Origin: Pseudaestuariivita sp.
GTDB lineage: Bacteria; Pseudomonadota; Alphaproteobacteria; Rhodobacterales; Rhodobacteraceae
DNA: 12,391 nucleotides
Direction of reading: 5' to 3'
Assembly (NCBI GenBank): GCA_020629995.1
Contig: JAHDCH010000058.1
Span: 1-12,391, forward strand
This document shows positions 87-12,391 of the stretch, piece after piece. Within the stretch, counting starts at the first letter, position 1. Every line of letters begins with the position of its first letter. Under the pieces are notes generated by a model. The model was given only the letters and a program-made list of their open reading frames with translations, made no database searches and was not told the DNA's origin. The position numbers and the translations under genes are program-made.

Positions 87-1004
87 GTGACCACCACCGA
101 CCCTGACGCGCCGCCTATGCTGACGTTGCACGGCGGCGCGACGCGCAGCGACAAGGGGCTGCAATCAAGCCCGGTGCCGATCCCGCGCGGGCAGGGGCGG
201 CAGATCATCGAGCTGGCCGTGTCAGATATTGAGGAGCTGGATGCACAACAGGTAGCCGAGATCGAAGATGTCTCGATCGGGCTGCGTGGCAAGCAACTCA
301 ACAAATTGCCCGATGCTCTGTGGGATTTTCCGAGCCTGTCCCGTTTATCGGTGCACACAGACAGATTGTGCGACGACCTGTTCGCCCGGGGCGTTCCGCC
401 CTCGGTCACGGCGCTGGCCATCTATGCGCAAACCCGCGATCTGGGTGACGTGGCGCCGGCGCCCAACCTGCAAGAGCTGACGATCGGCGAGCCGCACAGC
501 TTTCTCTTTGCGCCGCCGGGCACCTTTCCGAACCTGCGCACCGCCCGCATCCAGATGGGGCAGGCGCGGCAGGCCAAAGACCGCGCGCGGATGTGGGAAC
601 AGGTGGCGGCGTGGGCGGGTCTGACCGAGCTTGAGATCAACCATCCTAGCGATGCTCTCAGCTTTGCTGATCTGCCCCGGTCGATTGCCACGCTGATCCT
701 GACCCGGGGCACATATGCCAGCCTTGATCTGCTCGAAGGGGCACCCGATCTGCGCAGCATGACCCTGTTGCCATCCACGAAACTGCGCAGCCTTGATGGT
801 TTGGAAAAGCTTCAAACTCTGGAAGAATTCGACTGCCTGAATGCTGGACGGCTCGACGAGTGTGAGGCGCTGTTGGCCCTGCCAAAGCTGCGGCGCGTGA
901 TGGCCATCCGCCCGCCCAAAAGCACCGCGCCGGTGTTCCGTGCGTTGCGGGACAGGGGCACCGAGTTGGTAGGGTTTCGCGACGAAGACAGCTATTTTTC
1001 GTGA
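87..1004 (+). CDS. Leucine-rich-repeat-like protein
   Basis: A 305-residue protein with no signal peptide or membrane segment, so probably cytoplasmic. From about residue 65 to 275 it shows irregular repeats of about 20-25 residues with spaced leucines and turn residues, such as LPDALWDFPSLSRLSV, APNLQELTI, LTELEI, PDLRSMTLL and LEKLQTLEEFDCL. This is the pattern of a leucine-rich-repeat solenoid, a fold that normally binds other proteins. The first 40 residues look disordered. No enzymatic domain is visible. The GTG start is chosen because GGAG lies 8 nt upstream; an in-frame ATG at 117 would remove ten residues. The gene converges on the secretion operon and has no evident functional link to it. 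The LRR call rests on spacing alone; the partner is unknown. Confidence 0.75.
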   Translation: MTTTDPDAPPMLTLHGGATRSDKGLQSSPVPIPRGQGRQIIELAVSDIEELDAQQVAEIEDVSIGLRGKQLNKLPDALWDFPSLSRLSVHTDRLCDDLFARGVPPSVTALAIYAQTRDLGDVAPAPNLQELTIGEPHSFLFAPPGTFPNLRTARIQMGQARQAKDRARMWEQVAAWAGLTELEINHPSDALSFADLPRSIATLILTRGTYASLDLLEGAPDLRSMTLLPSTKLRSLDGLEKLQTLEEFDCLNAGRLDECEALLALPKLRRVMAIRPPKSTAPVFRALRDRGTELVGFRDEDSYFS

Positions 1005-1044: not shown

Positions 1045-1515
1045 CTAGTTCGGCGGCGGCGCGAAGGTAAAGGTCCAGTCGCGGAAGCTTTCGATTTTGG
1101 ATCCGCGCGGACCCATCGCGTCGGTTGTGGCCACGGTGATCCGCCGGGCGGGCTGTCTTTTTGAATCAAGGAACACGCCCTGGATCTGGCCTTGGGCGTT
1201 GCGGATCATTTGCCAGGTGTCCCCTTCAAAGGGCGACACCGGTTCGCGCCGCAGGTGACGCCGCAACCCGTTTCGGCGATCCTCCAGCAGCTGGGCGATA
1301 TCTGTTGGCAGCTCGGGCGTTTCTCCGCCCGCGACATAGTAGCTTTGCAGCGCGTTCAGGATCGCCGTGCCTTCGGCCTCGACCCGGTGGTCAATCTCGC
1401 GTTTGGCGCGCATCGCTTGCGAGGCGACCTGCGATTGCCCCAGAATGCCCACGACCAACAGGAACGCCAGCACCGCCGGATAGGAAAATCCGCCCTGGCC
1501 GCCTAGTTTCCCCAC
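1045..1515 (-). CDS. Pilin-like protein lacking Glu5, last gene of the secretion operon
   Basis: A 156-residue class III-signal protein. A nine-residue leader ending GGQGG precedes a hydrophobic helix starting FSYPAVLAFLLVVGI. The mature protein has Pro at +4 and Ala at +5, not the Glu5 that most pilins use for assembly. After the helix come a charged helix (residues 36-60) and a small domain with the basic motif RRHLRR (85-90) and a later AQGQIQGVFLDS segment. From memory, this matches a pilin-like family in the T2SS-type clusters of other Proteobacteria, where the RHLR motif is kept and Glu5 is also absent. The start is taken as GTG at 1515, which overlaps the gspG stop by 13 nt and leaves a correct leader length. 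The longer open frame upstream is gspG read out of frame. Its role could be at the filament tip or base, in place of a minor pseudopilin. Confidence 0.8.
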   Translation of the reverse strand: MGKLGGQGGFSYPAVLAFLLVVGILGQSQVASQAMRAKREIDHRVEAEGTAILNALQSYYVAGGETPELPTDIAQLLEDRRNGLRRHLRREPVSPFEGDTWQMIRNAQGQIQGVFLDSKRQPARRITVATTDAMGPRGSKIESFRDWTFTFAPPPN

Positions 1516-1943
1516 GAGGTGATATCCGCGTTTTCGCCGGTGCCGCCTTCCACGCCGTCGGCCCCGAATGACACGATTTCGAACTGCCCGTCGCGGCCCG
1601 GGTATTTGTAGACAAAGGGCTGGCCCCAGGGATCGTCGGGGATGTTCTTGCGCAGGTAGGGGCCGGCCCAGCCCGGCACCCCGGGATCGGTGCGCAGCAC
1701 GGCCAGCCCTTGCTGGGTTGACGGGAAATTGCCGGTGTCGACCCAATAGCTTTCCAGCGCGGTGGTGAAATTGCCGATCTGGCCGCGCGCGATGGTCTGC
1801 TTGGCCGGGTTGATCTTGTTGTACAACAGCGGCCCGACCAGCCCGGCCAGAAGGCCGATGATGACCAGAACGACCAGCAGCTCCATCAGGGTGAACCCGT
1901 CCTCCCGCCGCAGTTTGTGAAATGTGGTCTTACCAATCCGCAT
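1503..1943 (-). CDS. gspG: Type II secretion major pseudopilin GspG-like
   Basis: A 146-residue prepilin. The leader of 16 residues ends in EDG, and the mature protein starts FTLMELLVVLVIIGLLAGLV, with Phe at +1 and Glu at +5. After the helix come the hallmarks of GspG: a helix with ALESYWVDTGNFPSTQQGL (about residues 62-80), then GWAGPYLRKNIPDDPWGQPF (about 91-110), and a C-terminal YPGRDGQFEIVSFGADGVEGG that in the family forms the calcium-binding loop. Length agrees with the family. It would be processed by a prepilin peptidase and polymerise into the pseudopilus. The ATG at 1943 overlaps the stop of the preceding pseudopilin gene by 14 nt, and the next gene begins inside its 3' end. This is the surest pseudopilin of the four. 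Confidence 0.93.
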   Translation of the reverse strand: MRIGKTTFHKLRREDGFTLMELLVVLVIIGLLAGLVGPLLYNKINPAKQTIARGQIGNFTTALESYWVDTGNFPSTQQGLAVLRTDPGVPGWAGPYLRKNIPDDPWGQPFVYKYPGRDGQFEIVSFGADGVEGGTGENADITSWGN

Positions 1944-2310
1944 AAACCGTTCCGTCCAATGCTTCGTTTGTTGATCTGCTGCTTACGTCGATGATGCCGC
2001 CGCCGTCTTCGGCCAGCTCGATGTCCCAATCCTCGGGGCTGCGGGCGATCGTGTCCTGGGGCAGGGCGCGCAAATAGCCTTCTTCGACCAGCGCGTCGAG
2101 CGTTTCGGGATAGGAAAGGTGGTCGGCGTAATATTCGTCGATGACGGTGCGCAGGGTGGTCAGGTTGGTACGCAGCGTCGTCTCGCGCGCTTTCTGGACC
2201 GATCCGCTCATCATCGGCACGGCCAGCCCGGCCAAAAGACCGACGATGGCCAGAACCACCAGCACCTCGGTGATGGTGTAGCCCGCCTGCGATTTCAGCC
2301 TACCAATCAC
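1930..2310 (-). CDS. GspG-like pseudopilin, second of the tandem pair
   Basis: A 126-residue prepilin with the leader MIGRLKSQAG followed by YTITEVLVVLAIVGLLAGLAVP. The mature N-terminus is Tyr with Glu at +5. The body has the pilin helix (LRTNLTTLRTVIDEYYAD) and a LSYPETLDALVEEGYLRALP segment, then a short beta part ending ALDGTVYADW. That ending closely parallels ALDGSEIRDW in the preceding gene, so the two look like paralogues. The GTG at 2310 is preferred because it gives a ten-residue leader, overlaps the upstream stop by 11 nt and has GGAG 8 nt before it. The longer reading from 2361 would put 17 implausible residues before the leader. Probably a pseudopilus subunit, major or minor. Confidence 0.87.
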   Translation of the reverse strand: MIGRLKSQAGYTITEVLVVLAIVGLLAGLAVPMMSGSVQKARETTLRTNLTTLRTVIDEYYADHLSYPETLDALVEEGYLRALPQDTIARSPEDWDIELAEDGGGIIDVSSRSTNEALDGTVYADW

Positions 2311-2782
2311 GGATTTCGCTCCCGTCCAGGGCGATGCGGTCGGTGTTGGCGCGCAGGTCAAAGATGTCTACGCCGTTCCACCGGTCTGCGTCAGCCGGGT
2401 CGCGGTGGCCCAGCAGGATCCACGGCTCGTCCGGGTCGCTGGCAAAGGGGTTGCCCGGCACTGCGCGCAGATACCTGCGTGTGCCGCCACCCTCGGCCAC
2501 CGGCACGCCTTCGGTCAGGACCTCCCAATCGGTGGGAAAGCCGTCGCGGCTGATGCCGCTGGTGTTTTGCGCGATCACGCCTTCGCGCCAGTCCTTGTGA
2601 AACTGGTCGATGCTGGCGCGCACGCGGATCAGATCGCGGCGCAGCTCGTATTCCTTTTGGCGCACGGATTGCTTTTGCAGCTGCGGGATGGCCGCAGCGC
2701 TGAGGATCGACAGGATCAGCATGACCACCAGCATCTCGACCAGGGTCGCGCCGCTTTGGTCCTTGATCCTACTTTGCCACAA
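2300..2782 (-). CDS. GspG-like pseudopilin, first of the tandem pair
   Basis: A 160-residue prepilin. The leader MWQSRIKDQSG is followed by ATLVEMLVVMLILSILSAAAIP, with Glu at +5 and Ala rather than Phe at +1. A long amphipathic helix (YELRRDLIRVRASIDQFHKD) leads to a larger, less conserved domain that includes GFPTDWEVLTEGVPV and RRYLRAVPGNPF, and it ends ALDGSEIRDW. The start must be the TTG at 2782, because it gives a normal leader and no ATG or GTG is available nearby in frame. It overlaps the end of the secretin gene by 14 nt, so translation is probably coupled. It would be cleaved after Gly11 and enter the pseudopilus. The exact position in the filament cannot be told. Confidence 0.85.
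   Translation of the reverse strand: MWQSRIKDQSGATLVEMLVVMLILSILSAAAIPQLQKQSVRQKEYELRRDLIRVRASIDQFHKDWREGVIAQNTSGISRDGFPTDWEVLTEGVPVAEGGGTRRYLRAVPGNPFASDPDEPWILLGHRDPADADRWNGVDIFDLRANTDRIALDGSEIRDW
2319..2322 (-). promoter_or_regulatory. Ribosome binding site for the second tandem pseudopilin
   Basis: GGAG on the minus strand, 8 nt before the GTG at 2310. It lies inside the coding sequence of the preceding pseudopilin and supports this start. Confidence 0.4.
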
Positions 2783-5036
2783 TTTTTGTCGACCCCAGGT
2801 CCGGATCCGTGCCGCCCGGGGCAGGCCCGTCCAGCTCGATCAGAAAATAGGACAGCCCCGCCTGTTTGCCCGCCAGCGTGATATCGGCCAGCGCGCCCCC
2901 CGCGCCTGCGTTGACGCCGGTAAAGGTGATCTCGCCCCGGTCGTTGTCATAGCTCACGTCGCCACCGGCCCGGGCAGCGGCGGATGTGACCTGCGCGATG
3001 TTCTTGTTGAACCGGATGCGGAACGACACGTTGGACCCCGCGGCGAAATCGGCGGCCGTCACGGCGACCTTGACGTCGCCGCCCGACGGGATTTCGTAGA
3101 TGCTGTTCTGAAAGCCCAGCTTGGGCTTGGCGGCCGCGGTGGGCGCGGGCGTACGCGGCGCCGCAGGGGCGCGGGCCGGGGCGGCAACCACCGGGCTGAG
3201 CGTGGCCGGGCCAGAGGATTTGCGCCCGTCCATGTCCAGCCGGATGACCGCGCCACCGGGCGCACCGTCATCGAGGAACGCAAATTCGTTTTCCGAGCTG
3301 ACGCGATCCCCCGTGCCCGAGAAAAACTCGGTATCGGCGGGCGAGGGGATGTCCCAGCCTTTGACGATGCGTGGCGTGAGGGTCAGCAGGATGTCGGTGC
3401 GCGTGCCTTGCCCGTCGCGCACCTGGAACAGCTTGCCGATCACGGGGATCTCGCCCAGCCCCGGCACGCGCTGCACCGTCACGCGTTCTTCGTCGCGGAT
3501 CAGCCCGCCGATGATCGCGGTTTCGTTGTCGTTCAGAACCATGTTGGTTTCGACATTGCGGGTGCCGATGGAAAAGGCGCTTTCGTCCGCGGTGCCCAGG
3601 TTCTGGCCAAGGCTGCTGACCTCGAGGTTCAACTCGACGTTCACGGTGTTGTCCAGCAGGACCTTGGGCGTCACCTCAAGCTTGATCCCGATGTCGCGAT
3701 ATTCGAACGAGGTGCGCGACTGGCCATTGGCATCCAGCACGGTCGCCGCGCGCAGCGGCACGCGGTCACCGATGTGGATGGTCGCCAGCTTTTGGCTGAC
3801 GGTGCGGATGCGCGGGCTGGCCAGCGTGCGGGCGTCCACATCCTGTTTGAAAAACTTGATGCTGGAGGCGGGCAGCGTCACGACCGAAGTCGCCAGCTGC
3901 GATCCCGCATCCCCGCCGCGAATCTGGCCCAGCGTCACCGTCGGTGGCGAGATGGTGATCTGCGAGCCGAAATCCACGCCGAGGTTCTCGCTCTTGGTGC
4001 GGTTCACCTCGAGGATCTCCACCTCCAGCGACACTTCGGCCAGGCCGCGGTCATTGGCCCGGATCAGCCGGTCGGCCAGCGCCAGCTTGTCGCGGGTCGT
4101 GCGCAGCGTGATCGAGTTGTTTTCGGTGTTCGCGCTGACGTTGGACACGTCCAGCACCCGTTCGACCAGCGCGCGCATCTGTTCCGCCGGGGCGCTTTCC
4201 ATATAGAAGGTGCGCACGTGGAAATCGGTGTTCTTGGCGCGCGCCTCGGGGCTGTCGTTGAAGATCAGAACCGAATTGCCACCCATGGGCCGGAAATGGT
4301 TGCCGCTGGCCTTGAGCATCAGCCGGAAGGCCTGATCGAACGACACCCGCTCGGCGTAGACGGTGACCTCCTGGTTGTCGAGGCCGGCGTCAAAGATCAC
4401 GTTCAGCCCGTAATTCTTGCCCAGCGTCAGGAACGCTTCTTTCATATCCGCGTCACGGAAATTGACCGTGACGGGCGCCGACGATTTCAGCTTGATCGGC
4501 TTGGGCGCGGTGTGGATCGGGGTGCTGCCATAGGCGCGGTTCAGCAGCTTGAGCGCCTCGCGGTTTTCCGGGTCGTGCTGCAGCGCCTCTTCCAGCTGCG
4601 CGATCGCCCGGTCGGTGCGGCCCAGCTTGAGGCTGGAGCGGCCTTGCGACATCGCCGCGTGCGATTTGCGTTTCGATTTGATCCCGTCCAGTTCATCGCG
4701 CAGCAGCTGGCTTTCGGGCACCACCAACAGGCCCTTGCTGAACGCGCCCTCGGCCGACCCCAGATCCCCTTGCCGCAGCAGATCGCGGCCCGATTTCAGA
4801 TAATGATCTTCGGCCGATTGAATCGCGCTCAGCAGAGCGGTGCGGTATTCGCTTTTGTTGGGGTTGCGCTGCGCATCCGAACGCGCCTTGGCCACGGTTG
4901 TGGACCATTCCGACCCATCAACCGGAGAGGATACAAGGGCAGGGGGGCGCGTGCGATCTTCTTCGCAGGATACAAGAAATACGCAGGCGCAAAGCGCCGC
5001 TATTCCCCGAAAAACCTTTCCAAAAACTCGTGCCAT
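2769..5036 (-). CDS. gspD: Outer-membrane secretin, lipoprotein with TPR and cohesin-like domains
   Basis: A 755-residue secretin, the multimeric outer-membrane channel of the machine. Residues 1-24 form a lipoprotein signal with lipobox LVSC (Cys24). Residues of about 75-170 look like tetratricopeptide repeats (DLGSAEGAFSKGLLVVP and TDRAIAQLEEALQHDPEN). About 190-260 resembles the STN/N0 domain, and 275-345 a secretin N-domain with ALVERVLDVSN. The secretin barrel spans about 390-560 and contains the family signature VPGLGEIPVIGKLF (524-537). An Ala/Pro-rich linker (about 606-640) leads to a C-terminal domain (about 640-755) whose pattern (KLGFQNSIYEIPSGGDVKVAV ending in ITFTGVNAG and LADITLAG) resembles a cohesin-type beta sandwich. 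Such TPR-secretin-cohesin fusions occur in T2SS-like clusters of Deltaproteobacteria and some others. It starts 3 nt after the previous stop. The Cys anchor may replace the need for a pilotin. Confidence 0.92.
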   Translation of the reverse strand: MARVFGKVFRGIAALCACVFLVSCEEDRTRPPALVSSPVDGSEWSTTVAKARSDAQRNPNKSEYRTALLSAIQSAEDHYLKSGRDLLRQGDLGSAEGAFSKGLLVVPESQLLRDELDGIKSKRKSHAAMSQGRSSLKLGRTDRAIAQLEEALQHDPENREALKLLNRAYGSTPIHTAPKPIKLKSSAPVTVNFRDADMKEAFLTLGKNYGLNVIFDAGLDNQEVTVYAERVSFDQAFRLMLKASGNHFRPMGGNSVLIFNDSPEARAKNTDFHVRTFYMESAPAEQMRALVERVLDVSNVSANTENNSITLRTTRDKLALADRLIRANDRGLAEVSLEVEILEVNRTKSENLGVDFGSQITISPPTVTLGQIRGGDAGSQLATSVVTLPASSIKFFKQDVDARTLASPRIRTVSQKLATIHIGDRVPLRAATVLDANGQSRTSFEYRDIGIKLEVTPKVLLDNTVNVELNLEVSSLGQNLGTADESAFSIGTRNVETNMVLNDNETAIIGGLIRDEERVTVQRVPGLGEIPVIGKLFQVRDGQGTRTDILLTLTPRIVKGWDIPSPADTEFFSGTGDRVSSENEFAFLDDGAPGGAVIRLDMDGRKSSGPATLSPVVAAPARAPAAPRTPAPTAAAKPKLGFQNSIYEIPSGGDVKVAVTAADFAAGSNVSFRIRFNKNIAQVTSAAARAGGDVSYDNDRGEITFTGVNAGAGGALADITLAGKQAGLSYFLIELDGPAPGGTDPDLGSTKIVAK

Positions 5037-5039
5037 CTT

Positions 5040-5549
5040 TTACTCAATCGAGATATCGCGCTGCAATGCCAGTTCGGGATGCGCAATTCTCACGCGATCC
5101 GGCCTGACAGCCTCTACGACAATTCCCTCACCCAGCTCTGTCCCAGAAACGGCAACCCCTTGAAAAAAGGGCGCGTTAACCATTGCACTTAACCCACTTC
5201 GGGACGAAAGAACACCCGTAACGTGTACGTTGAGCATGTTTACGCGTGCAACTTCCAACGCGACTTCGCGCGGGTCGGGGCCTGTTTCGACCGGCGCGAC
5301 AACCGTAGGTTCGGGGACAGGGCGCACCGGTTCGGGCCGCACCTCGACAAAGGCGAACAGATCGCGTTCGGCCTGTGGCGGCGACCGGCTGGCCTGCGTG
5401 GGAAAAGCAAAGCCGGGCAGGTCCGGCACCGCGCTGATCGGGCCATCGGCCCTGTCATCACCAGTGCCGCCGCCGCCCGCGTAGCGGACCACGTTCAACG
5501 CGATCAACACCGCGATCACACCGGTCACAAGAAGCGCTCTGCCGGTCAC
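5040..5549 (-). CDS. PilP/GspC-like periplasmic linker protein
   Basis: A 169-residue bitopic protein. One membrane span (about residues 5-22) is followed by a Gly/Pro-rich linker with ERDLFAF (61-67) and a string of Pro-Val pairs (70-90). A small C-terminal beta domain follows (about 105-169), with VHVTGVLSSRSGLSAMVN and GEGIVVEAVRPDRVRIAH. This layout is that of GspC and PilP, in which the C-terminal homology region contacts the N0 domain of the secretin, and the next gene is indeed the secretin. The start is the GTG that directly follows the previous TAG, with AGGAGG five bases upstream, so this start is secure. Sequence identity to either family is low, and I leave the choice open. Confidence 0.8.
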   Translation of the reverse strand: MTGRALLVTGVIAVLIALNVVRYAGGGGTGDDRADGPISAVPDLPGFAFPTQASRSPPQAERDLFAFVEVRPEPVRPVPEPTVVAPVETGPDPREVALEVARVNMLNVHVTGVLSSRSGLSAMVNAPFFQGVAVSGTELGEGIVVEAVRPDRVRIAHPELALQRDISIE

Positions 5550-6095
5550 CTAGGCCTCCTGTCTCAGCAAAGTGGCCAGGCTGATCCGGATCTTCTGGCG
5601 CGTGCCCTTGCCGCGTTTCCAGTCGACCTCTTCGATCAGGGTCAGGTGTTTCGAGGCGCCGACCAGCTGCAAGAAATACCGCACAGCGGCATACTCGCCT
5701 TCCAGCGTCACCTCCTGCCGCAACCAGATGATGCCGTCACGGCGCGTGTCGGTCCGGTTGTCGCTGTGCAACAGGGTGATGTTGCTGCGCCGCACCAGCG
5801 TGCTGATTTCCGACACCAGTTCCGACTGGGTAAGCGGGGTGGTCAGCTGATCATCCAGCGTCGCCAGGATGTCCTTGGTCGTGCGGGCCTGTTCCGACAG
5901 GTTGGCCCGCGCGCGCACCTGCGCCAGGTCGCGTTTCAGCGCACGGTTTTCGGCCTGCAATTCGGCGTGGCGCTGCGCGGTGCCCGACCAAACCTGCACC
6001 TGCAAGACCCCCAGCAGGGCGGCGGCACACAGGCACACCAGCACCGACAGCACCAGATGCGGCACCAGCAGGTAGCGCAAAAAGACCTGTTTCAT
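5550..6095 (-). CDS. PilO/GspM-like inner-membrane alignment protein
   Basis: A 181-residue bitopic protein with a membrane span at about residues 12-34. A coiled-coil segment follows (about 38-80, rich in Glu, Arg, Ala and Leu), and then a ferredoxin-like domain with QEVTLEGEYAAVRYFLQLV and ASKHLTLIEEVDWKRG (127-161). This LEGxYxxVxxFLxxL signature is typical of PilO. In type IVa pili, PilN and PilO form a heterodimer in the inner membrane that links the cytoplasmic PilM ring to PilP and the secretin. The ATG overlaps the previous TGA (ATGA), and the next gene starts directly after its own TAG. The GspM-like alternative would have the same role. Confidence 0.82.
   Translation of the reverse strand: MKQVFLRYLLVPHLVLSVLVCLCAAALLGVLQVQVWSGTAQRHAELQAENRALKRDLAQVRARANLSEQARTTKDILATLDDQLTTPLTQSELVSEISTLVRRSNITLLHSDNRTDTRRDGIIWLRQEVTLEGEYAAVRYFLQLVGASKHLTLIEEVDWKRGKGTRQKIRISLATLLRQEA
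5555..5560 (-). promoter_or_regulatory. Ribosome binding site for the PilP/GspC-like gene
   Basis: A full AGGAGG on the minus strand, inside the 3' end of the PilO-like gene and five bases before its GTG at 5549. It settles the start and suggests strong independent re-initiation there. Confidence 0.65.
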
Positions 6096-6628
6096 GACGA
6101 CACCCGCAAATCATACTGGAACACCCGCTCGCCCGACCCTTCGAGCGTCACTTGCCGTTCCAGTTCAACCGCAGCGGCGCCAAAGCCGTCCTGCAGGGCT
6201 TCGATGGATTTCAGCAGGCTCTCTTCGACCTCTGACACCAGCGAAAAGGTGATGAACCGCCCGCGCCGGTCATAAAAGATCGCGCTGGCCCGTACATCGC
6301 GCGGCAAGGTCTCTTCAAGCAGGTCCAGCATTTCAAGGATCGGCGGCGCGCCCGCGCCAATCTGGTCATTGTACCATTCTACCCGGGCGGCCAGGGCGCG
6401 CAGTTCGGCGATTTCGGGGGCATCCGCGGCGGCCTGCCGTTCAGTCACCAGCGCGGCCGAAATCTTTTGGTTTTGCTCGGCAAACCGGGCGGCCTCTTCG
6501 CGCAGGGCCGCGTGTGTCAGCGATTGCATCCAGAGGGCCACAAGGCACCCAAGTGTCAGCGCATAGAACACCACAGCCAGAATGGCCGACAGGTTGCGGG
6601 GGGCAGGGATGACGGACAGGTTGATCAT
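6092..6628 (-). CDS. PilN-like inner-membrane alignment protein
   Basis: A 178-residue bitopic protein that begins MINLSVIPAPRN, close to the INLLP-type N-terminus of PilN that docks onto PilM. A membrane span follows (about 13-35), then a coiled-coil stretch (about 40-80) and a small alpha/beta domain containing PPILEMLDLLEETLP, the usual PilN phrase, and a terminal QVTLEGSGERVFQYDLRVSS. It is expected to pair with the PilO-like protein. The ATG at 6628 is chosen because it gives the INL N-terminus and overlaps the previous stop as ATGA. The longer open frame reaching 7108 covers an antiparallel reading of the PilM gene. Confidence 0.85.
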   Translation of the reverse strand: MINLSVIPAPRNLSAILAVVFYALTLGCLVALWMQSLTHAALREEAARFAEQNQKISAALVTERQAAADAPEIAELRALAARVEWYNDQIGAGAPPILEMLDLLEETLPRDVRASAIFYDRRGRFITFSLVSEVEESLLKSIEALQDGFGAAAVELERQVTLEGSGERVFQYDLRVSS

Positions 6629-7461
6629 CGTGCGCCCAGCCGTTCTGCCACGGTGGTCCATGACGCCAGATGGGTTGCGGTCACCGCCATCTTCTGCTCC
6701 GCCTCCAGCGTGGCAAGAGTGGGTGACGCAGGCGACGCGGCCTTGAGGAACGCCGCGACATAGGCGGGTGCCGGGGTGGCCGCCGCGCAGATCCTCTTGA
6801 GCCGGCGCAGCATGTTCTGATCGTCCACATCCGCCGCGCCCCACGAGGCAAAGATCGGCTCGGCCCGGGTGCCGGGGCCCAGTATGCGAAAGCACCACCA
6901 CTCCGGCCCGCGCCAGAAATACAGCCCCGATTGCGCCGCCGCCTTGGCCGGGCGACGAGGGGTCAGAAAACTGCTGAGCGCATCGATGCGCGTGGCCACC
7001 AAGCCATTGGCCCACAAGGCAGACTGCACCGCCCCAGAGCTCTGCTGGTGCAGCGATTGCGCCAGAACGGTGGCGGTGGCGGATTTGCCCGTGTCGACCC
7101 TGTGCCAACCGACCGAGACATCATTAGCGTTGAGGTTCAGATCGCGCGCGTGCCGCCACGCCACCAGCCGCGACGCCTCTTTGGCCGATTTGGGAAAAGC
7201 GTCAAACTCCAGCAGGGATTGCTGGAACATCGGGTCGGGCAGGGCGACCGACACTTGCGTGTCGGCGCGCCGCATCACCGCCGGAAACTGGCCGGCGAGG
7301 CGGCCAAGGCCCTGATCCAGACCCGTCAGCGCGGGCGTTTCGACATCCGTCTTGTGCGCCAGCTGCGCGCTGTGGATGACCCGTCCACGGGCCGACTTCA
7401 GGCACATGGCCAGCGCCGACGGCGCGACCACCAACGTCAGGTGCTGTCGCTTGCTCCACAT
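6625..7461 (-). CDS. PilM/GspL-like cytoplasmic scaffold protein (divergent)
   Basis: A 278-residue soluble protein with no membrane span. It sits immediately upstream of the PilN-like gene, as pilM does in pilMNOPQ operons. The N-terminal strands (HLTLVVAPSALAMCLKSARGRVI) fit the first strands of an actin-like fold. SVALPDPMFQQSLLEFDAFP and ASRLVAWRHARDLNLNANDVSVGW (about 70-120) correspond to the region in PilM-like proteins where the LP..Q sequence is followed by a W/D segment. The nucleotide-binding loops are not clear to me, so ATP binding is uncertain. It probably recruits the short PilN N-terminus and the GspE-type ATPase. Start ATG shares one base with the preceding stop. Homology is inferred largely from position and layout. 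Confidence 0.7.
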   Translation of the reverse strand: MWSKRQHLTLVVAPSALAMCLKSARGRVIHSAQLAHKTDVETPALTGLDQGLGRLAGQFPAVMRRADTQVSVALPDPMFQQSLLEFDAFPKSAKEASRLVAWRHARDLNLNANDVSVGWHRVDTGKSATATVLAQSLHQQSSGAVQSALWANGLVATRIDALSSFLTPRRPAKAAAQSGLYFWRGPEWWCFRILGPGTRAEPIFASWGAADVDDQNMLRRLKRICAAATPAPAYVAAFLKAASPASPTLATLEAEQKMAVTATHLASWTTVAERLGAR

Positions 7462-9035
7462 CAGCTGTCGCCCAGAACGCGGGCCAGCTCGGCCTCGCTG
7501 ATCAGACCGTCTGTCACCAGATCCCTTGCCGCGTCCTCAAGCTGGCGCATGCCCTTGCGTTCGCGTGCGTCCTTGAGCGCGCCAAAGATCGACCGGTTGA
7601 CGATCAGCTCGGATATTTCAGGATCGACAATCAGATGTTCCAGCGCCGCAAGCCGCCCGCGATAGCCGGTGCCCGAACAGGTGACACAGCCCCGGGCCTC
7701 GTACGTGGGCCGGTCGGCGGCTGTCTTGCGTTTCAGCACCAGCGGCGCGGGCTTTTTGCACTGCGCGCACAGACGCCGGAACAGACGCTGCGCAAAGACC
7801 GAATTCAGCGCGGCCACAAAATCATGCAGGTCTATGCCCCAATGGGTAAAGCGCCCGATCACGTCCAGCGTGTTGTTGGCGTGCACCGAGGCCAGCACCA
7901 GATGCCCGGTCAGGGCGGCCTGAATCGCGATCTCGGCGGTTTCGCGGTCGCGGATTTCGCCGACCATGATCTTGTCCGGATCGTGCCGCAGGATCGACCG
8001 CAGCCCGGACGCAAAGGTCAGGCCCTTTTTCTCGTTCACCGGGATCTGCGCGACATTGGCGATCTGGTATTCGATCGGGTCCTCGATCGTGATGATCTTT
8101 TGCCCGCCATCGTTCATTTCGCCAAGCGCGCCATACAGGGTGGTGGTCTTGCCGCTGCCGGTGGGGCCGGTGATCAGCATCAGACCGTAGGGCGCGCGCA
8201 CCTCGCGGCGCAGTACCGCAAGATCCGCCTGCGCAATCCCCAGTCCGTCCAGCGACAGCGCTTTGCCGTCCTCGGCCAGATGCGCCTTGTCAAGAATCCG
8301 GATCACCACGTCTTCGCCAAACTGGGTGGGCAGGACCGACACGCGGAAATCAATCTCGCGCCCGTCAAAGCGCATCCGAAAGCGGCCGTCCTGCGGGATG
8401 CGCTGTTCGGCGATGTCCAGTTCAGCCAGCACCTTGATGCGCGACACCAGCTCTTCGTGGTGAGTGGCGTCGATGTGATCGGTCGCGGGACGCAGGATGC
8501 CGTCGATCCGGTATTTCAGATCCAGCCGGTGCGCCGACAGTTCGAAATGGATGTCGGACACCTGCTTTTCCAGCGCCGCCATCAGGACCGAGTTCAACAG
8601 CCGGACAACGCCGGTTTCGCCCACCACCGACGCAAGGTCGACCACCTCTTCGTCGCCGGTGCCGGTTTCGCGGACCAGCTCGGGCTGGAAATCATGCGCC
8701 ACGTTGCGCAGCACCTGCCCGCCGCTGTCTGCAAGGCGCAGATAGGCGAGAATCTCTTTGCGTTCGGCAACCGCAAGGTCAACATCTCCGCCCGCCAACC
8801 GGCAAAGTTGATTTTCCAGAAAAAGGTTGCCGGGATCGCAAATCGCGATGTGAACCTTTCCATCCGCGCCCCGAAATGGCGCAGCCGTCAGGCGCAAAGC
8901 GTCCTCGACCGAAAATACGTCAAAGACCTGAGGATCTATCTCTTTTGTGCCCAACTCGACAAAGTCCAAGTCAAGCTGTTTGGCCCGGGTTCGAAGCTCG
9001 TTCAGGTCAAGAGAGTGATTTTGCGCCACGTTCAC
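7461..9035 (-). CDS. gspE: GspE/PilB-like secretion ATPase
   Basis: A 524-residue hexameric AAA-type ATPase that powers pseudopilus assembly from the cytoplasmic side. A degenerate N-terminal domain (about 25-110) is followed by the N2 domain with SDIHFE and the RIDG segment. The core has Walker A GPTGSGKTT (290-298), an Asp box IITIEDPIE (314-322), a Walker B-like KIMVGEIRD (355-363), and a His box LVLASVHANNT (379-389). A zinc-binding tetracysteine follows: CAQC (423-426) and CVTC (450-453), as in GspE and PilB. The SVHANN and DVIGRF wording differs from the common LHTND form and, from memory, is seen in related T2SS-like clusters. GTG at 9035 directly follows the gspF stop. The next in-frame GTG, at 9029, has AGG at a better distance and may be the true start. 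Confidence 0.93.
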   Translation of the reverse strand: MNVAQNHSLDLNELRTRAKQLDLDFVELGTKEIDPQVFDVFSVEDALRLTAAPFRGADGKVHIAICDPGNLFLENQLCRLAGGDVDLAVAERKEILAYLRLADSGGQVLRNVAHDFQPELVRETGTGDEEVVDLASVVGETGVVRLLNSVLMAALEKQVSDIHFELSAHRLDLKYRIDGILRPATDHIDATHHEELVSRIKVLAELDIAEQRIPQDGRFRMRFDGREIDFRVSVLPTQFGEDVVIRILDKAHLAEDGKALSLDGLGIAQADLAVLRREVRAPYGLMLITGPTGSGKTTTLYGALGEMNDGGQKIITIEDPIEYQIANVAQIPVNEKKGLTFASGLRSILRHDPDKIMVGEIRDRETAEIAIQAALTGHLVLASVHANNTLDVIGRFTHWGIDLHDFVAALNSVFAQRLFRRLCAQCKKPAPLVLKRKTAADRPTYEARGCVTCSGTGYRGRLAALEHLIVDPEISELIVNRSIFGALKDARERKGMRQLEDAARDLVTDGLISEAELARVLGDS

Positions 9036-10238
9036 CTATTGAATTACATCCGAGACGCCAAATATCGGCAGATAGACAGTGATTACGATTACCCCAATTA
9101 CGCCCCCCACCAGAACCATCATAATCGGTTCAATCAAGGACGTGACCACATCGACACGGTCGCTCAGCTCTTGTTCGTGCAATTTGGCAACGTGGTGCAT
9201 CATCCGATCCAGCGCACCGGTACGTTCGCCCGCCTGGATCAACCCTTCGCCCGCGCCCGGGAAAAACCCGTTGTCCCGCGCCAGGTCGGAAAACCTTTTG
9301 CCTGTGGCGACCCCGTTTTCAACTTCGCCCAGCTTGCCCGCCAAATAGCTGTTGGGCAGGTTGTCCCGCACCAGCCCCAGCGCGGATTTCAGCGGCATCC
9401 CGGAATACAGCAGCAACGACAGGCCCGAGGCGATCTGCGCCATATGGCCCTCGTGCCTCAGCCGGCCAAAGATGGGCACCTGCAGGCTGACGCGGTCCAG
9501 CCACAGCTTGCCCCGATCGGTCTGCATCGCAAACTTGCGGCCCAGCCAGATCGCCGCCATCACAGCCAGCAGACCACCGCCCCACAGCGGCGCTGTTTCC
9601 ACCGTGTTGATCAGCACCTGGGTGGACGCCGGCAGATCGGCGCCAAATTCGGAATACAGCTCGACGAAATTGGGCAGGATGAACAGGAACAGCACCACCA
9701 GCACGATCACCAGCAGGCACAGCAGAAAGACCGGATAGGCCATCGCCTTGCGGAACTTGCGCGCCAGTTCAAGCCGCATCGCCAGATCGGATTCGTACCG
9801 TTCCAGCGCCGCCGCAAGCCCCCCCGACGACATCCCGATCTGAAAGGTCGTGGCCAGGGCAGGTTCAAAGATGTCGGGCCGGTTGCGCAGGGCGTCGGGC
9901 AGGGCGGTGCCGCGCCGTACATCTTCGGTGACGTCATGGAGCGCGGTCGACAATTGCAGGTCGTTGGGGCGGTTCTTCACCATGCCCAGGGCTTCGATCA
10001 CCGATATGCCGGCCTCGATGATGGTGCGCAGCTCGCGCAGCATCGCCAGGATTGACGCGGGCTTGACCCGGTTGCGCGCCACGATTTCGCCGACGGACCC
10101 GCGCTGTTCGCGCAAGGACGAAACCAGCAGGCCTTCCTTTTGCAATTCGTCGCGTAGATGGCTGCCCGACAGCCCTTTGCGGGTCTCGGTGACAAGGCGC
10201 CCCGCCGCATCCCGCGCCTTGATGCGAAAGGTCTTCAT
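9036..10238 (-). CDS. gspF: GspF/PilC-like inner-membrane platform protein
   Basis: A 400-residue polytopic protein, the platform that rotates or clamps under the ATPase during filament assembly. It has two copies of the T2SSF domain, about 64-186 (LRELRTIIEAGISVIEALGM) and about 266-390 (GLSLLLYSGMPLKSALGLV and GLIQAGERTGALDRMMHHVA). Membrane spans are predicted at about 168-190, 218-234 and 370-392, the usual three. Length matches the family. The start is the ATG at 10238, which gives MKTFRIKARDAAGRLV, the expected GspF N-terminus, and overlaps the prepilin peptidase stop as ATGA. The upstream extension to 10289 is only the 3' end of the peptidase gene in another frame. Confidence 0.93.
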   Translation of the reverse strand: MKTFRIKARDAAGRLVTETRKGLSGSHLRDELQKEGLLVSSLREQRGSVGEIVARNRVKPASILAMLRELRTIIEAGISVIEALGMVKNRPNDLQLSTALHDVTEDVRRGTALPDALRNRPDIFEPALATTFQIGMSSGGLAAALERYESDLAMRLELARKFRKAMAYPVFLLCLLVIVLVVLFLFILPNFVELYSEFGADLPASTQVLINTVETAPLWGGGLLAVMAAIWLGRKFAMQTDRGKLWLDRVSLQVPIFGRLRHEGHMAQIASGLSLLLYSGMPLKSALGLVRDNLPNSYLAGKLGEVENGVATGKRFSDLARDNGFFPGAGEGLIQAGERTGALDRMMHHVAKLHEQELSDRVDVVTSLIEPIMMVLVGGVIGVIVITVYLPIFGVSDVIQ

Positions 10239-10726
10239 GGCACCGCCCGCCACAGCTCGATCCCGGCAAAAAGGGCGATGGCCGGGCACAGATACAGACC
10301 AAAGGGAATATGCGCATCAGGCCGGTGCACACCGAAAAACACCGCAGCCAGCGCGCTGGCCGAACTGATAACCAATATCCACGCCAGGTTGTGCGGCCCA
10401 ACCCACAGCGTTGCCGCTGCAAAAAGCTTGACGTCGCCCATCCCCAGCGCCTCTTTGCCCAGCACCCGGGCCGCGCCAATCGACAAAAGCAGCCCCGCGG
10501 TCAGGCTCAGAACCGCCCCCGCAATTCGGAACGCCAGCTCTTGGGGGACCGCCAGGAAACAAAAGACCACGCCCGCCAAAACGAGTGCAGCAACATCTGT
10601 GTTTGGAATGACGCGGCGCCGCAGGTCGCTAAGCGCGATCCTGACAAGCAACAGCGCCATCCCAAGGACAGCCGCACCCAGCCCAAGCAGCACAGGTAAA
10701 GGGGACGAGGTAAAATCGTACGACAT
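10235..10726 (-). CDS. Prepilin peptidase, catalytic domain only (A24 family)
   Basis: A small polytopic aspartate protease of 163 residues from the ATG at 10726, or 167 from a GTG at 10738. The two catalytic aspartates are visible: SDLRRRVIPN near the first membrane span and GMGDVKL further on (Asp34 and Asp98 in the shorter form). About five hydrophobic spans follow one another. The N-terminal methylase domain of full-size PilD/GspO, with its paired cysteines, is absent, as in the CpaA/TadV branch. It would cleave the leaders of the four prepilins at the operon's end. N-methylation would then need another enzyme, or does not occur. First gene of the operon; neither start has a clear binding site. 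Confidence 0.88.
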   Translation of the reverse strand: MSYDFTSSPLPVLLGLGAAVLGMALLLVRIALSDLRRRVIPNTDVAALVLAGVVFCFLAVPQELAFRIAGAVLSLTAGLLLSIGAARVLGKEALGMGDVKLFAAATLWVGPHNLAWILVISSASALAAVFFGVHRPDAHIPFGLYLCPAIALFAGIELWRAVP

Positions 10727-10781
10727 CGTAAATCGCACGTTAGGTTGTTTTCAAACGACGCACACCCTCATTTTGCGAGTA

Positions 10782-10818: not shown

Positions 10819-11835
10819 TCAACCCTCAAGAGCCGCCAGAATGGCGCGCGTTTCGGGCATCCGGGCCAGTGACCTGTCCATGTGCTCGCGCCAGCGCGGG
10901 CCGACATCGCGCGCGGCGGCATGGGCCGCGATCAGATCGTCGGGCCTGTCTTCGGCCAGCGCAGCGATCAGGAACGCGGCCTGCTCGCGGTCCTTTGCGG
11001 ATTTGACCCGCCCGGGCCCGTCGCGCCGCCGGTCCGCGATGATCAGCTTGTGGATCGCATAGCGTTCGGGGCGCGGCACCTGAACCAGGATCCCCGACCT
11101 GTAGATCGCCGCGGCGTGGATCGGCTCGGCGATCAGAAAGTTCAGGTAGTTCAGCGCCTGCGCCCCCACACCCAGCGCCGGCAGATCGCGCAGCGTCTCC
11201 TCGCCAAAGGCCGGCGTCAAAAACTCGACCAGCTGCCCGCTGCCACCCTGCGCCCATCGCCACGTCCGCCCTTTGGCCAACCCGGGCACCGGATCGAATT
11301 TGAGCGCAGAGAAGGTCGCGGCCAGGCCTGGATCCACCTGGTCCTGCAAGGCCACGCTCAGCTTTTCGAATTGCGCGATGTCGATATCGCCGGTGTTTGC
11401 CATACCGCCCAAAGGCAGCCGCAAGCCCAGTTCGCCTTCGTACAGGCGAAAGGCATTGGTGCCCACCAGCGTCCCGCCCAGACGGAATGTCCCGGCGGTG
11501 GCCATCGCCGACAGGATCGACCCCGTCGCGCGGTCCGTCGGCGTCAGGCCTTCGGCGCGCAGCAGGCGAACAAGGCGCGACCTTTCGGCCTGCCTGTCTT
11601 TGGCCGTTGCGCGCAGGTCTTCGATCCGGTCGATCCGCACGCGCGTCTCGGCGGTGTCTTCGCCGATATAGGTGAACTGCATGTCCGTCCCGACACGGCG
11701 GGCGGCGTACCAATACCCCCTTGCCCCACGCTTTTTCAGCGTCGGCGTGCCGTCGACCCCCGACAGGGCGTCATCCTTCAAAAGCCGCACCAGATCGGTA
11801 TAGGCGCTGGTCGCAATGCTGCTGAGTGGGGTCAT
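10819..11835 (-). CDS. Nucleotidyltransferase-fold protein, GSU2403-like
   Basis: A 338-residue soluble protein. Residues 118-137 (LGGTLVGTNAFRLYEGELGL) and a following NTGDIDIA (147-154, Asp150 and Asp152) match, from memory, the core of GSU2403-family nucleotidyltransferase-fold proteins: a G-rich strand, then a DxD metal site. The N-terminal 100 residues (YTDLVRLL, GYWYAARRVGTDMQFTYIGED) and the C-terminal helical part (PERYAIHKLIIADRR, AKDREQAAFLIAAL) also fit that family. Its substrate is not known; related folds include antitoxin-paired AbiEii/MenT enzymes. The ATG at 11835 has no ribosome binding site. No partner antitoxin gene was found next to it. It is upstream of the secretion operon on the same strand, but separated by an AT-rich gap, and I infer no functional link. 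Confidence 0.78.
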   Translation of the reverse strand: MTPLSSIATSAYTDLVRLLKDDALSGVDGTPTLKKRGARGYWYAARRVGTDMQFTYIGEDTAETRVRIDRIEDLRATAKDRQAERSRLVRLLRAEGLTPTDRATGSILSAMATAGTFRLGGTLVGTNAFRLYEGELGLRLPLGGMANTGDIDIAQFEKLSVALQDQVDPGLAATFSALKFDPVPGLAKGRTWRWAQGGSGQLVEFLTPAFGEETLRDLPALGVGAQALNYLNFLIAEPIHAAAIYRSGILVQVPRPERYAIHKLIIADRRRDGPGRVKSAKDREQAAFLIAALAEDRPDDLIAAHAAARDVGPRWREHMDRSLARMPETRAILAALEG

Positions 11836-11844
11836 GCCAATCAA

Positions 11845-11850
11845 TTTATA
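11845..11850 (-). promoter_or_regulatory. Possible -10 box for the nucleotidyltransferase gene
   Basis: TATAAA on the minus strand, 9 nt before the ATG at 11835. If used, the transcript would be almost leaderless, which agrees with the missing ribosome binding site. No good -35 is seen. Confidence 0.25.
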
Positions 11851-11871
11851 GTTTTGCTTGGCACGTTTGTA

Positions 11872-11896
11872 CCTAGCGAAACTTGAAATTGCTAGG
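11872..11896. repeat. Inverted repeat in the divergent intergenic region
   Basis: CCTAGC (11872-11877) and GCTAGG (11891-11896) are perfect 6-bp arms around a 13-bp spacer, centred two helical turns apart. The site lies just upstream of the nucleotidyltransferase gene and about 40 bp before the EcfG-type promoter, so it could be an operator for the minus-strand gene. Confidence 0.3.
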
Positions 11897-11933
11897 CAAA
11901 TCTTTGGCGCCGCTGCGACGCCCGCGCCTTGCG

Positions 11934-11958
11934 GGAACCAGCCAAGGCCGCCCGCGTT
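11934..11958 (+). promoter_or_regulatory. EcfG-type (general stress response) promoter
   Basis: GGAAC (11934-11938) and CGTT (11955-11958) are separated by exactly 16 bp. This is the consensus of the alphaproteobacterial general-stress sigma factor EcfG (GGAAC-N16-17-CGTT). Transcription would begin near 11965, leaving a leader of about 20 nt with AGGAGG in the right place before the ATG at 11986. The promoter would drive the two small genes that follow. Confidence 0.6.
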
Positions 11959-11974
11959 GTGCCCCCAAGAACCC

Positions 11975-11980
11975 AGGAGG
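11975..11980 (+). promoter_or_regulatory. Ribosome binding site of the small membrane protein
   Basis: AGGAGG, five bases before the ATG at 11986. It is the main reason to accept so short a gene. Confidence 0.7.
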
Positions 11981-11985
11981 CACCC

Positions 11986-12057
11986 ATGCACAGCATTTTC
12001 TACGTCATCGGCGTTCTGGTGGTTGCCGTCGCAATCCTGAACCTGGCCGCCGTTTGA
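11986..12057 (+). CDS. 23-residue single-span membrane protein
   Basis: The peptide begins MHSIFYVIGVLVVAVAIL and ends NLAAV, almost entirely one hydrophobic helix. It is too short for usual gene finders. Support comes from a perfect AGGAGG at five bases, an EcfG-type promoter just upstream, and a second gene with its own binding site 23 bp downstream. Small hydrophobic proteins of this type, often placed by stress genes, occur in Rhodobacteraceae as far as I remember; no function is known. It probably inserts in the inner membrane. Codons are GC-rich like those of the neighbours. Confidence 0.65.
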   Translation: MHSIFYVIGVLVVAVAILNLAAV

Positions 12058-12068
12058 CCCCTGAACAC

Positions 12069-12073
12069 AGGAG
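12069..12073 (+). promoter_or_regulatory. Ribosome binding site of the Ala-rich protein
   Basis: AGGAG, seven bases before the ATG at 12081. Confidence 0.6.
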
Positions 12074-12080
12074 ACATCCC

Positions 12081-12391
12081 ATGACCAACTCGACATCCAA
12101 ATCTTCCACAAAATCGAACCTGAAGGCGCAAGCAAGCGAAGCCGCAGCCGCAGCCGAGGACGAAGCCCGCGACATCGCCGAACAGGCCAAGGCGACAGCG
12201 ACCGCACATGCGGACGCGGCCAAGGCATCTGTTGCCAGCGAAGTGGACGAGACCGCCGAACAGCTGCGTGACGCGGGCCGCTCCTTTGACGAAGGCAGCT
12301 TTGCCGACATCGCCGCAAGCCACCTGGCCGACAACCTTGCCTCGGCCGCCGATGCGGTGCGCACGACTGACCTGTCGTCGCTGCAGGACGA
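12081..12391 (+). CDS. Ala-rich helical protein, 5' part only
   Basis: The first 103 codons of a gene that runs off the window. Residues 1-13 are Ser/Thr/Lys-rich. From 14 to about 65 the chain is Ala/Glu/Asp/Lys-rich and probably one long amphipathic helix or coiled coil (AEDEARDIAEQAKATATAHA). Then SFDEGSFADIAASHLADNLA and AADAVRTTDLSSLQD follow. This pattern recalls alphaproteobacterial stress or nutrient-deprivation proteins that continue with RRxPALF and a C-terminal membrane span, but that part is outside the window. It lies 23 bp behind the small membrane protein and probably shares its EcfG-type promoter. Confidence 0.7.
   Translation, partial: MTNSTSKSSTKSNLKAQASEAAAAAEDEARDIAEQAKATATAHADAAKASVASEVDETAEQLRDAGRSFDEGSFADIAASHLADNLASAADAVRTTDLSSLQD

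Follow-up and report, generated by a model that had tools for sequence, protein, structure and literature searches.

An operon of the type IV filament superfamily with giant SpvB/TcB-RHS proteins as candidate cargo

Introduction

The Geobacter Pul machinery, whose genes are named like PilM-N-O-P plus a secretin lipoprotein, is reportedly called an atypical type II secretion system in the title of Mehta et al. 2006. In Geobacter sulfurreducens, the Pul (OxpG) system is required for the export of the multicopper protein OmpB, and the pseudopilins PulG, OxpG and TklG have been named for duplicated sets in Pelobacter; the parts of that source available to us mention no RHS link, and we liken the system to the operon studied here only from its description (PMC3543383). 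A second gsp cluster, Rmet_4704-4713, was noted in 2010 in Cupriavidus metallidurans CH34, with a matching content of gspD, gspEFG, two extra gspG and four hypothetical genes, of which three are predicted to encode membrane proteins; the accessible portions of that report assign it to no clade, give no cargo and mention no connection to RHS (PMC2864759). On the side of the possible cargo, Zhang et al. 2012 described the TcdB/TcaC export class of polymorphic toxins, in which a signal peptide is joined to SpvB, an FG-GAP/integrin-like propeller, RHS and a variable C-terminus; Table 1 of that paper, as far as it was available, gives TcdB as the signature neighbour gene and no filament machine (PMC3482391).

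In the open-licence literature, no title or abstract opening among the matches listed stated a link of RHS to secretin/pseudopilin machines. Atypical T2SSs gave no matching papers there, and the best-ranked matches on T2SSs of Rhodobacteraceae or Alphaproteobacteria, seen to the same extent, likewise stated none. The new element of the present analysis is that RHS giants emerge as a cargo candidate for such an operon.

A twelve-gene filament-machine operon

The window, i.e., the whole stretch of 12,391 nucleotides that was analysed, apparently constitutes a complete contig (G000, C43:1-12391) of a genome that is 70% complete. Twelve filament-machine genes form one run on its minus strand (1045-10738), all of them present as the first-pass annotation had placed them, in the order peptidase, F, E, M, N, O, P, secretin D and the pseudopilins H1, H2, G and K, with most neighbouring genes overlapping or abutting. 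Because the same or a similar gene order recurs in dozens of other loci, a chance assembly is excluded. When ten of the operon proteins were scanned with profiles, none passed the equivalog cut-offs for T2SS, T4aP or MSH.

The prepilin peptidase (10235-10738; 167 aa, PF01478 Peptidase_A24, 52.6 bits) comprises the A24 catalytic part only, and a peptidase gene also adjoins the operon in L020 (same strand) and in L022 and L023 (divergent). The inner-membrane platform F (9036-10238; PF00482 T2SSF, 160.9 bits) starts with an ATG at 10238, an earlier GTG at 10289 being possible, and scores 248 bits against the GspF profile (equivalog cut-off 424). The assembly ATPase E (7461-9035; PF00437 T2SSE, 384.4 bits) carries an MshEN N-domain (PF05157, 48.4 bits) and scores almost alike against GspE (449 bits, cut-off 630) and PilB (435 bits, cut-off 676). 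With 54 bits for E against the TadA-family profile (cut-off 373) and F encoded as one full-size protein, the locus departs from the Tad type. Contig C62 of the same genome also has T2SSF matches, which seem to belong to a distinct Tad locus.

The four alignment genes resemble those of pili, in agreement with the first-pass annotation: as families, M, N and P correspond to PilM, PilN and PilP. For the actin-fold protein M (6625-7461), Pfam gave a PilM or GspL match in 0 of 21 family members, and the assignment needed profile-versus-PDB and fold comparison, where the M family profile matched PilM (7e-9) and an AlphaFold model (pLDDT 85.7) matched PilM best (5eoy, 1.9e-13), ahead of the GspL cytoplasmic domain (2e-11). 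PF05137 (PilN) was matched by 18 of 21 family members of N (6092-6628, with the start near 6628), the window's own N not among them. The PilO/GspM-like O (5550-6095) reached 21.7 bits for PilO, just under the Pfam cut-off of 22, compared with 19.9 bits for T2SSM (cut-off 27.8) and 31.3 bits for GspM_XpsM (cut-off 60). The PilP/GspC-like P (5040-5549) combines an N-terminal hydrophobic segment, a Pro-rich linker and a homology-region-like domain in the alignment, where no PDZ domain was seen; its family profile matched PilP in the PDB at 4.8e-9 and GspC at 1e-3, and 1 of 20 family members matched T2SSC. The PilM, PilN, PilO and PilP set by which T4aP is recognised is present, with O only just below its Pfam cut-off, and M and N are separate genes, unlike the one fused GspL of T2SS.

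Secretin D (2769-5036; Secretin, 135.7 bits) is built of TPR, STN and secretin domains and a C-terminal cohesin-like domain, and has at residues 21-24 the sequence LVSC, which we take to be lipobox-like; Cohesin PF00963 is annotated on the relatives P0068, P0080 and P0089 and was not found on the window's D. The protein had been read as T2SS-like, which is not clearly the case: it scored 152 bits against GspD (cut-off 351), 141 against PilQ (cut-off 284) and 77 against MshL (cut-off 250), and its best PDB matches were about equal for PilQ (115 bits) and GspD (111 bits). With GspD and PilQ scores so close and both under their cut-offs, D as a plain GspD was ruled out.

The T2SS-like character of the major pseudopilin was borne out, G (1503-1943) being GspG (PF08334 T2SSG, 117.7 bits, with an N_methyl match too). 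The minor pseudopilins H1 (2300-2782; TTG start, N_methyl 31.1 bits) and H2 (1930-2310; GTG start, N_methyl 26.2 bits) both have Glu+5. K (1045-1515) was recognised in the alignment of family rows as a pseudopilin-like subunit, with a prepilin-like leader by eye and with Glu+5 missing in 13 of 13 aligned rows. GspK of canonical T2SS likewise lacks Glu+5, and K is presumed to be the filament tip; an AlphaFold model of K gave no significant PDB match, the best being XcpGHIJK (9a1f, E 0.36).

Convergent with the operon lies a leucine-rich-repeat-like gene (87-1004, plus strand; LRR_4 15.5 bits, under the cut-off of 27), for which there was no NCBIfam match and no tblastn match in the 11 related regions tested. 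By position and strand, it might be a candidate immunity gene.

A branch of its own in the E+F tree

We built a tree on E and F from the window and 31 of the 69 loci with at least five operon genes, together with 11 T2SS, 7 MSH and 10 T4aP rows (10 of 20 T4aP loci); L201, L204 and L205 were left out, and the tree was without T4bP, ComM, Tad and Geobacter rows. All 32 rows of the window's family formed one clade (SH-aLRT 100) outside the T2SS, MSH and T4aP rows, where GspE was under the profile cut-off in L191-L194, four of the ten T2SS rows from Alphaproteobacteria, and MshL in 2 of the 7 MSH rows (L199, L203). Similar operons with conserved gene order were found in Beta-, Gamma- and Alphaproteobacteria. 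Judged from sequence, the operon is best seen as a distinct lineage within the type IV filament superfamily, with its own branch beside the T2SS, T4aP and MSH rows compared. The idea of a chimera was ruled out by the single E+F clade and the conserved order.

These data also revise the first-pass annotation, which had described a hybrid and an architecture uncommon in Alphaproteobacteria. Its expected phylogenetic position was recovered, with relatives of the same family and outside the rows of canonical T2SS and T4aP that were used. The operon is rare in Rhodobacteraceae, occurring at a threshold of E<=1e-60 in 3 of the 394 genomes, the window's own among them, and is absent from the one other genome of the window's genus that was searched. 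The mixed composition stands, with PilMNOP-like alignment genes next to GspG, but a hybrid peculiar to Alphaproteobacteria finds no support: the operon is a lineage whose gene order is conserved in the other two classes as well, and a C. metallidurans cluster of similar make-up was already noted in 2010 (PMC2864759, as far as available).

Compared with canonical T2SS, the window's operon shares the GspG major pseudopilin, E, F, a secretin and a subunit without Glu+5, but differs in having separate M and N and a secretin with TPRs and a lipobox-like start, and in the branching of E and F outside the T2SS rows used. It has PilM/PilN/PilP-like genes and the MshEN domain on E in common with T4aP and MSH pili; unlike in those, no PilT was found over the cut-off in the window's subgroup (G000, G396, G220, G418, G419, G420 and G422, where G000 is 70% and G220 64% complete and G220 and G419 are apparently one genome), and E and F fall outside both row sets. 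PilT is present in G421, G423 and G424, a point against the exporter reading proposed below.

Giant RHS genes near the operon

Fetched flanks alone gave a modest picture, with a YD-rich frame at 11 of 69 operon loci, frames of at least 800 aa at 30 of 69, and no flanking gene common to more than 8 of 70 loci; the RHS pattern emerged only through genome-wide searches. We searched 46 carrier genomes (L058 left out), a set chosen after large neighbouring frames had been noticed and thus possibly selected for RHS, and found the RHS core (TIGR03696) in 33 of them. In 22 of these 33, counting only cores on contigs that share sequence with the operon locus and could be assigned to it in this way, a core lay at most 20 kb from the operon, compared with 0.81 expected (P 1.9e-29 under independence; since the carriers are related, this P value and that of the control below overstate independence). 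Counted over all 69 loci, the number with a core within 20 kb was still 22; G700 (L034), with a core ~15 kb away by coordinates, is outside this count. As a control, we compared ATPases within the same 33 genomes: among the matches listed, an RHS core was at most 25 kb away for 21 of 31 window-type ATPases versus 2 of 119 other GspE-profile ATPases (Fisher 4e-16), an imperfect control because the latter are probably mostly in core-genome loci. This listing lacks the window-type ATPases of G696, G729 and some others, and for several of those it includes, the contig was inferred from coordinates alone. Furthermore, a frame with at least two YD motifs occurred in 0 of 20 T2SS/MSH/T4aP regions of 15-20 kb.

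Distances were short in several lineages, at +37 bp in L036, +347 in L040, +714 in L030 and +841 bp in L024, and in G696, the genome with L020 (64% E+F identity to the window's operon), each of the six RHS cores detected lies 3.9-14.1 kb from the operon. In Duganella rivi FT55W, the one RHS core detected is 11 kb from the operon, which a giant frame adjoins. SpvB-containing frames of 3000-4100 aa stand beside the operon in several lineages, and the SpvB giants that were scanned contain SpvB, FG-GAP and RHS repeats, mostly with TcdB_mid too. This proximity to giant RHS genes in many bacteria suggests that the giants may be cargo. The first-pass annotation had called the cargo unknown; linkage now offers the SpvB/TcB-RHS giant as a candidate.

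The linkage is not universal. An RHS core is missing from 13 of the 46 carriers, among them Nitrosomonas, Methylovorus, Vogesella and two MAGs of Rhodobacteraceae, and 12 of these 13 also lack SpvB, so that other cargo must exist; Yoonia sediminilitoris has one weak, stop-interrupted RHS core and no SpvB. These 12 carriers would be expected if the machine were a T2SS-like exporter with a broad range, moving several proteins unrelated to one another and RHS giants as one cargo of many, as for the Geobacter Pul system and its requirement for OmpB secretion (PMC3543383, in the parts available). Big neighbours other than RHS proteins, for example the CARDB giant of L042, fit as well. We consider this somewhat unlikely, given that the strong RHS excess was found near the window-type operon only.

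The window's own genome encodes such a giant on contig C35, a 3248-aa frame with SpvB, TcdB_mid, FG-GAP and RHS repeat that is 72% identical to the G696 giant over 3048 aligned residues. Its SpvB, FG-GAP and RHS combination is that of the TcdB/TcaC class; the contig edge cuts the frame off within the RHS core motif, so that its C-terminus, and with it any variable end, is missing. The giant and the operon are on different contigs (C35 and C43), and no shared end sequence between C35 and the window was found.

The C35 giant adjoins ParA/RepB partition genes, and secretin D matches occurred in 25 PLSDB plasmid records. In Aliiroseovarius crassostreae, the secretin and an SpvB/TcaC giant occur on an identical set of 8 plasmids, and in the one plasmid inspected the giant lies ~36 kb from the operon. 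Among the plasmid regions scanned, 4 of 8 were without a YD-rich frame, and in Aquabacterium olei a POTRA/FhaB-like pair comes after the operon. The CH34 megaplasmid record has a secretin match that covers 52% of the query at 34% identity, probably the second gsp cluster, with a 2708-aa frame without YD motifs nearby. Operon and RHS arrays might both be accessory genes that gather on plasmids or islands, adjacent yet functionally unconnected, the machine exporting unrelated enzymes. The plasmid matches, the partition genes beside the own giant, the sporadic distribution (3 of 394, and absence from the one other same-genus genome searched) and the suggestion that the C. metallidurans cluster was acquired laterally (PMC2864759, in its accessible portions) are in line with such hitch-hiking, but the short-distance adjacency in L036, L040, L030 and L024 and the ATPase control (21/31 versus 2/119) argue against it, and we regard it as unlikely.

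Discussion

A true extracellular type IV pilus, serving adhesion or DNA uptake, is very improbable, since the PilMNOP-like alignment genes and the PilQ-like score of D that would fit it are set against a GspG-type major subunit, the lack of PilT over the cut-off in the subgroup genomes searched, and the position of the family outside the T4aP and MSH clades.

On balance, we favor a T2SS-like exporter whose main cargo in many carriers would be a giant SpvB/TcB-RHS protein, a reading drawn from gene content and linkage, and the window's organism is probably among these carriers. In this exporter, the peptidase would mature the pseudopilins, and E and F would build a short G-type pseudofilament, with K at its tip, on a PilMNOP-like scaffold. 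The filament, presumably non-retracting, would push folded periplasmic cargo outward, with the lipoprotein secretin D as the likely channel. The cargo would be a giant Sec-exported SpvB/TcB-RHS (YD-repeat) protein, polymorphic-toxin-like and possibly a toxin, with its gene close to the operon or at least on the operon's replicon. More tentatively, the operon could represent a distinct secretion system beside T2SS, T4aP, MSH and Tad, dedicated to moving folded SpvB/TcB-RHS giants across the outer membrane, and could be the missing exporter of the TcdB/TcaC class where T6SS-type delivery is unused.

How very large Sec-signal RHS/YD-repeat proteins cross the outer membrane becomes a testable question with a compact operon near such genes in many genera. 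In Aliiroseovarius, the annotation lists the alignment genes, the secretin and K as hypothetical proteins; the proposed function, if true, would give this machine a cargo and a name.

Results

Gene calls and profile matches confirmed the filament machine proposed in the first-pass annotation: twelve abutting or overlapping genes at 1045–10738 on the minus strand, comprising an A24 peptidase, the platform F, the ATPase E, the alignment proteins M, N, O and P, the secretin D and the pseudopilins H1, H2, G and K. None of the ten proteins in an NCBIfam scan (all but G and K) passed an equivalog cut-off for T2SS, T4aP or MSH. M gave no Pfam PilM match; against the PDB, its profile matched PilM at 7e-9 and GspL at only 0.63, and its AlphaFold model was likewise closest to PilM, with the cytoplasmic domain of GspL somewhat weaker. 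Pfam PilN matched 18 of 21 N family members, and the P profile matched PilP at 4.8e-9 and GspC at 1e-3; by eye, P begins with a hydrophobic segment and lacks a lipobox. E carries an MshEN domain, G is GspG-like, and K lacks Glu+5 in all 13 aligned rows, an absence that characterizes GspK-type tip subunits. D begins with a lipobox-like motif whose Cys24 is nearly invariant; TPRs, STN and secretin domains follow, and the C-terminal domain is assigned to cohesin by precomputed Pfam in three relatives. Directly upstream of the operon and likewise on the minus strand, the gene at 10819–12318 encodes a Pfam NTP_transf_8 nucleotidyltransferase domain; its long N-terminal extension probably reflects a wrong start.

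A secretin-alignment profile search of genome contigs found 228 relatives; the 80 best loci were retained, and gene order was compared across the 69 loci in which five operon genes or more were present. The order F-E-M-N-O-P-D-H1-H2-G-K is repeated in Rhodobacteraceae and Gammaproteobacteria, in a few Betaproteobacteria and in candidate division FCPU426; G instead precedes F in many Betaproteobacteria and in some Gammaproteobacteria, and a third arrangement has O-P-D-H1-H2-K-G ahead of F-E-M-N. At a Nitrospirales locus (L045), K precedes D and G was not detected, and at a Hyphomicrobiaceae locus (L027), G comes first and H2 and K were not detected. A lytic-transglycosylase-like gene, assigned by eye from the flanking-gene cluster and annotated in L267, adjoins the operon in several Betaproteobacteria (L046, L072, L087, L088, L267). 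Weak secretin-profile matches of 22–63 bits came from proteins of 720–965 aa encoded close to the operon in members of Methylophilaceae and in Variovorax (L069:1871–4033, L070:1667, L073:11560, L079:13198, L096:1511).

In a quick IQ-TREE phylogeny of E and F (61 rows, SH-aLRT support only, without T4bP, ComM, Tad or Geobacter rows), the 32 operon-family rows formed one clade with support 100, next to clades for T2SS (99), MSH (100) and T4aP (90). The window grouped with the G696 locus L020, Yoonia sediminilitoris and L023 (support 99), and because this group is nested among rows from Gamma-, Beta- and Alphaproteobacteria and FCPU426, the tree suggests that the operon was transferred into Rhodobacteraceae. 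At E ≤ 1e-60, the operon occurs in 3 of 394 Rhodobacteraceae genomes, the window's own included, and it was not found in the sole other genome of the genus searched. PilT was found in G421, G423 and G424, and no match passed the cut-off in the window's genome (G000), G396, G220, G418, G419, G420 or G422.

Large frames adjoining the operons include YD-repeat and SpvB/TcB-like giants. Genome-wide searches found RHS cores (TIGR03696) in 33 of 46 carriers of the operon and SpvB in 23. When the regions around the RHS matches were retrieved, sequence that they share with operon loci placed 22 of them on the operon's contig, and in 22 of the 33 carriers a core lay within 20 kb of the operon, where random operon placement predicts 0.81 (P = 1.9e-29, a value that assumes independence and is inflated by the relatedness of the carriers). 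As an internal control, among 150 listed GspE-profile ATPases from these 33 genomes, which hold at least that many, 21 of 31 of the window type lay within 25 kb of a core, against 2 of 119 others. A YD-rich frame was present in none of 20 control regions (15–20 kb each) around T2SS, MSH and T4aP loci. A single ancestral arrangement is an unlikely source of all this linkage, since the 22 linked carriers, judged by their record titles, include Rhodobacteraceae, Hyphomicrobiaceae, Marinobacter and other Gammaproteobacteria, Lysobacteraceae, Oxalobacteraceae, Burkholderiaceae and Comamonadaceae.

In G696, the giant is followed by five more RHS-core frames and then by the operon, oriented toward them; of the three further frames read in L020, one ends in a NucA/NucB-type nuclease, and a nearby gene has a weak, below-cut-off Imm26 match. 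The single SpvB match in the window's genome falls in a 3248-aa frame on contig C35. By eye, this frame opens with a Sec-like signal; it is 72% identical to the G696 giant across 3048 aligned residues and is cut off by the end of the contig within the RHS core motif. No RHS core exceeded threshold in this genome. ParA-like and RepB partition genes lie near this giant (at 11489–13587 of L260, a region of C35), so that it may reside on a plasmid or chromid, perhaps together with the operon. In the window itself, an LRR-like gene (87–1004, plus strand), convergent with the operon and the sole gene between it and the contig end, encodes a protein assignable to no known family. It stands where a G696-like RHS array would end, and on this position alone it is a candidate immunity gene.

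An Aliiroseovarius crassostreae plasmid carries twelve matching genes in identical order, six annotated as hypothetical. In this species, secretin and giant occur on the same eight plasmids; on the one inspected, the giant lies ~36 kb from the operon, with genes for an AHH-domain protein and an Imm26-family protein after it. A frame with at least two YD motifs lay near the operon in four of eight plasmid regions scanned, namely in Janthinobacterium lividum (annotated as a 2290-aa FG-GAP protein), Eleftheria terrae (an annotated RHS protein, then an ankyrin-repeat protein), Variovorax paradoxus and Caballeronia sp. SBC1, and was absent in A. crassostreae, C. metallidurans CH34, Paraburkholderia largidicola and Aquabacterium olei.

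Discussion

Several findings speak against RHS proteins as the cargo. Twelve of the 46 have neither RHS core nor SpvB, and Yoonia sediminilitoris lacks SpvB and has a single weak, stop-interrupted core; the closest core lies 35 kb from the operon in the Nitrospirales genome and 29 kb from it in L042, where both share a contig. Other giants also occur: downstream of the operon on Aquabacterium olei pTB101 (L269, 21429–33392) are a PEP-CTERM protein, a POTRA-domain protein and an FhaB-like giant. Downstream of the L042 operon lies a 2332-aa giant with CARDB and terpenoid-cyclase-fold-like regions (14679–21674), a possible non-RHS cargo. The machine is therefore a general exporter that RHS proteins have often recruited, or else a dedicated one whose cargo was replaced in some lineages.

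Denise et al. 2019 (PMC6668835) assign systems without a matching specific model to a generic class, the genome paper of C. metallidurans (PMC2864759) notes a second gsp cluster whose content matches the operon, and OmpB secretion is stated to require the Geobacter Pul system (PMC3543383). The available text of Zhang et al. 2012 (PMC3482391) names no machine for the TcdB/TcaC export class that it lists, and treats signal-peptide toxins as T2SS/Sec-dependent by default. The machine is a distinct lineage, noticed before and little described in the literature searched, and its linkage to RHS/SpvB proteins is the new, testable part of the finding.
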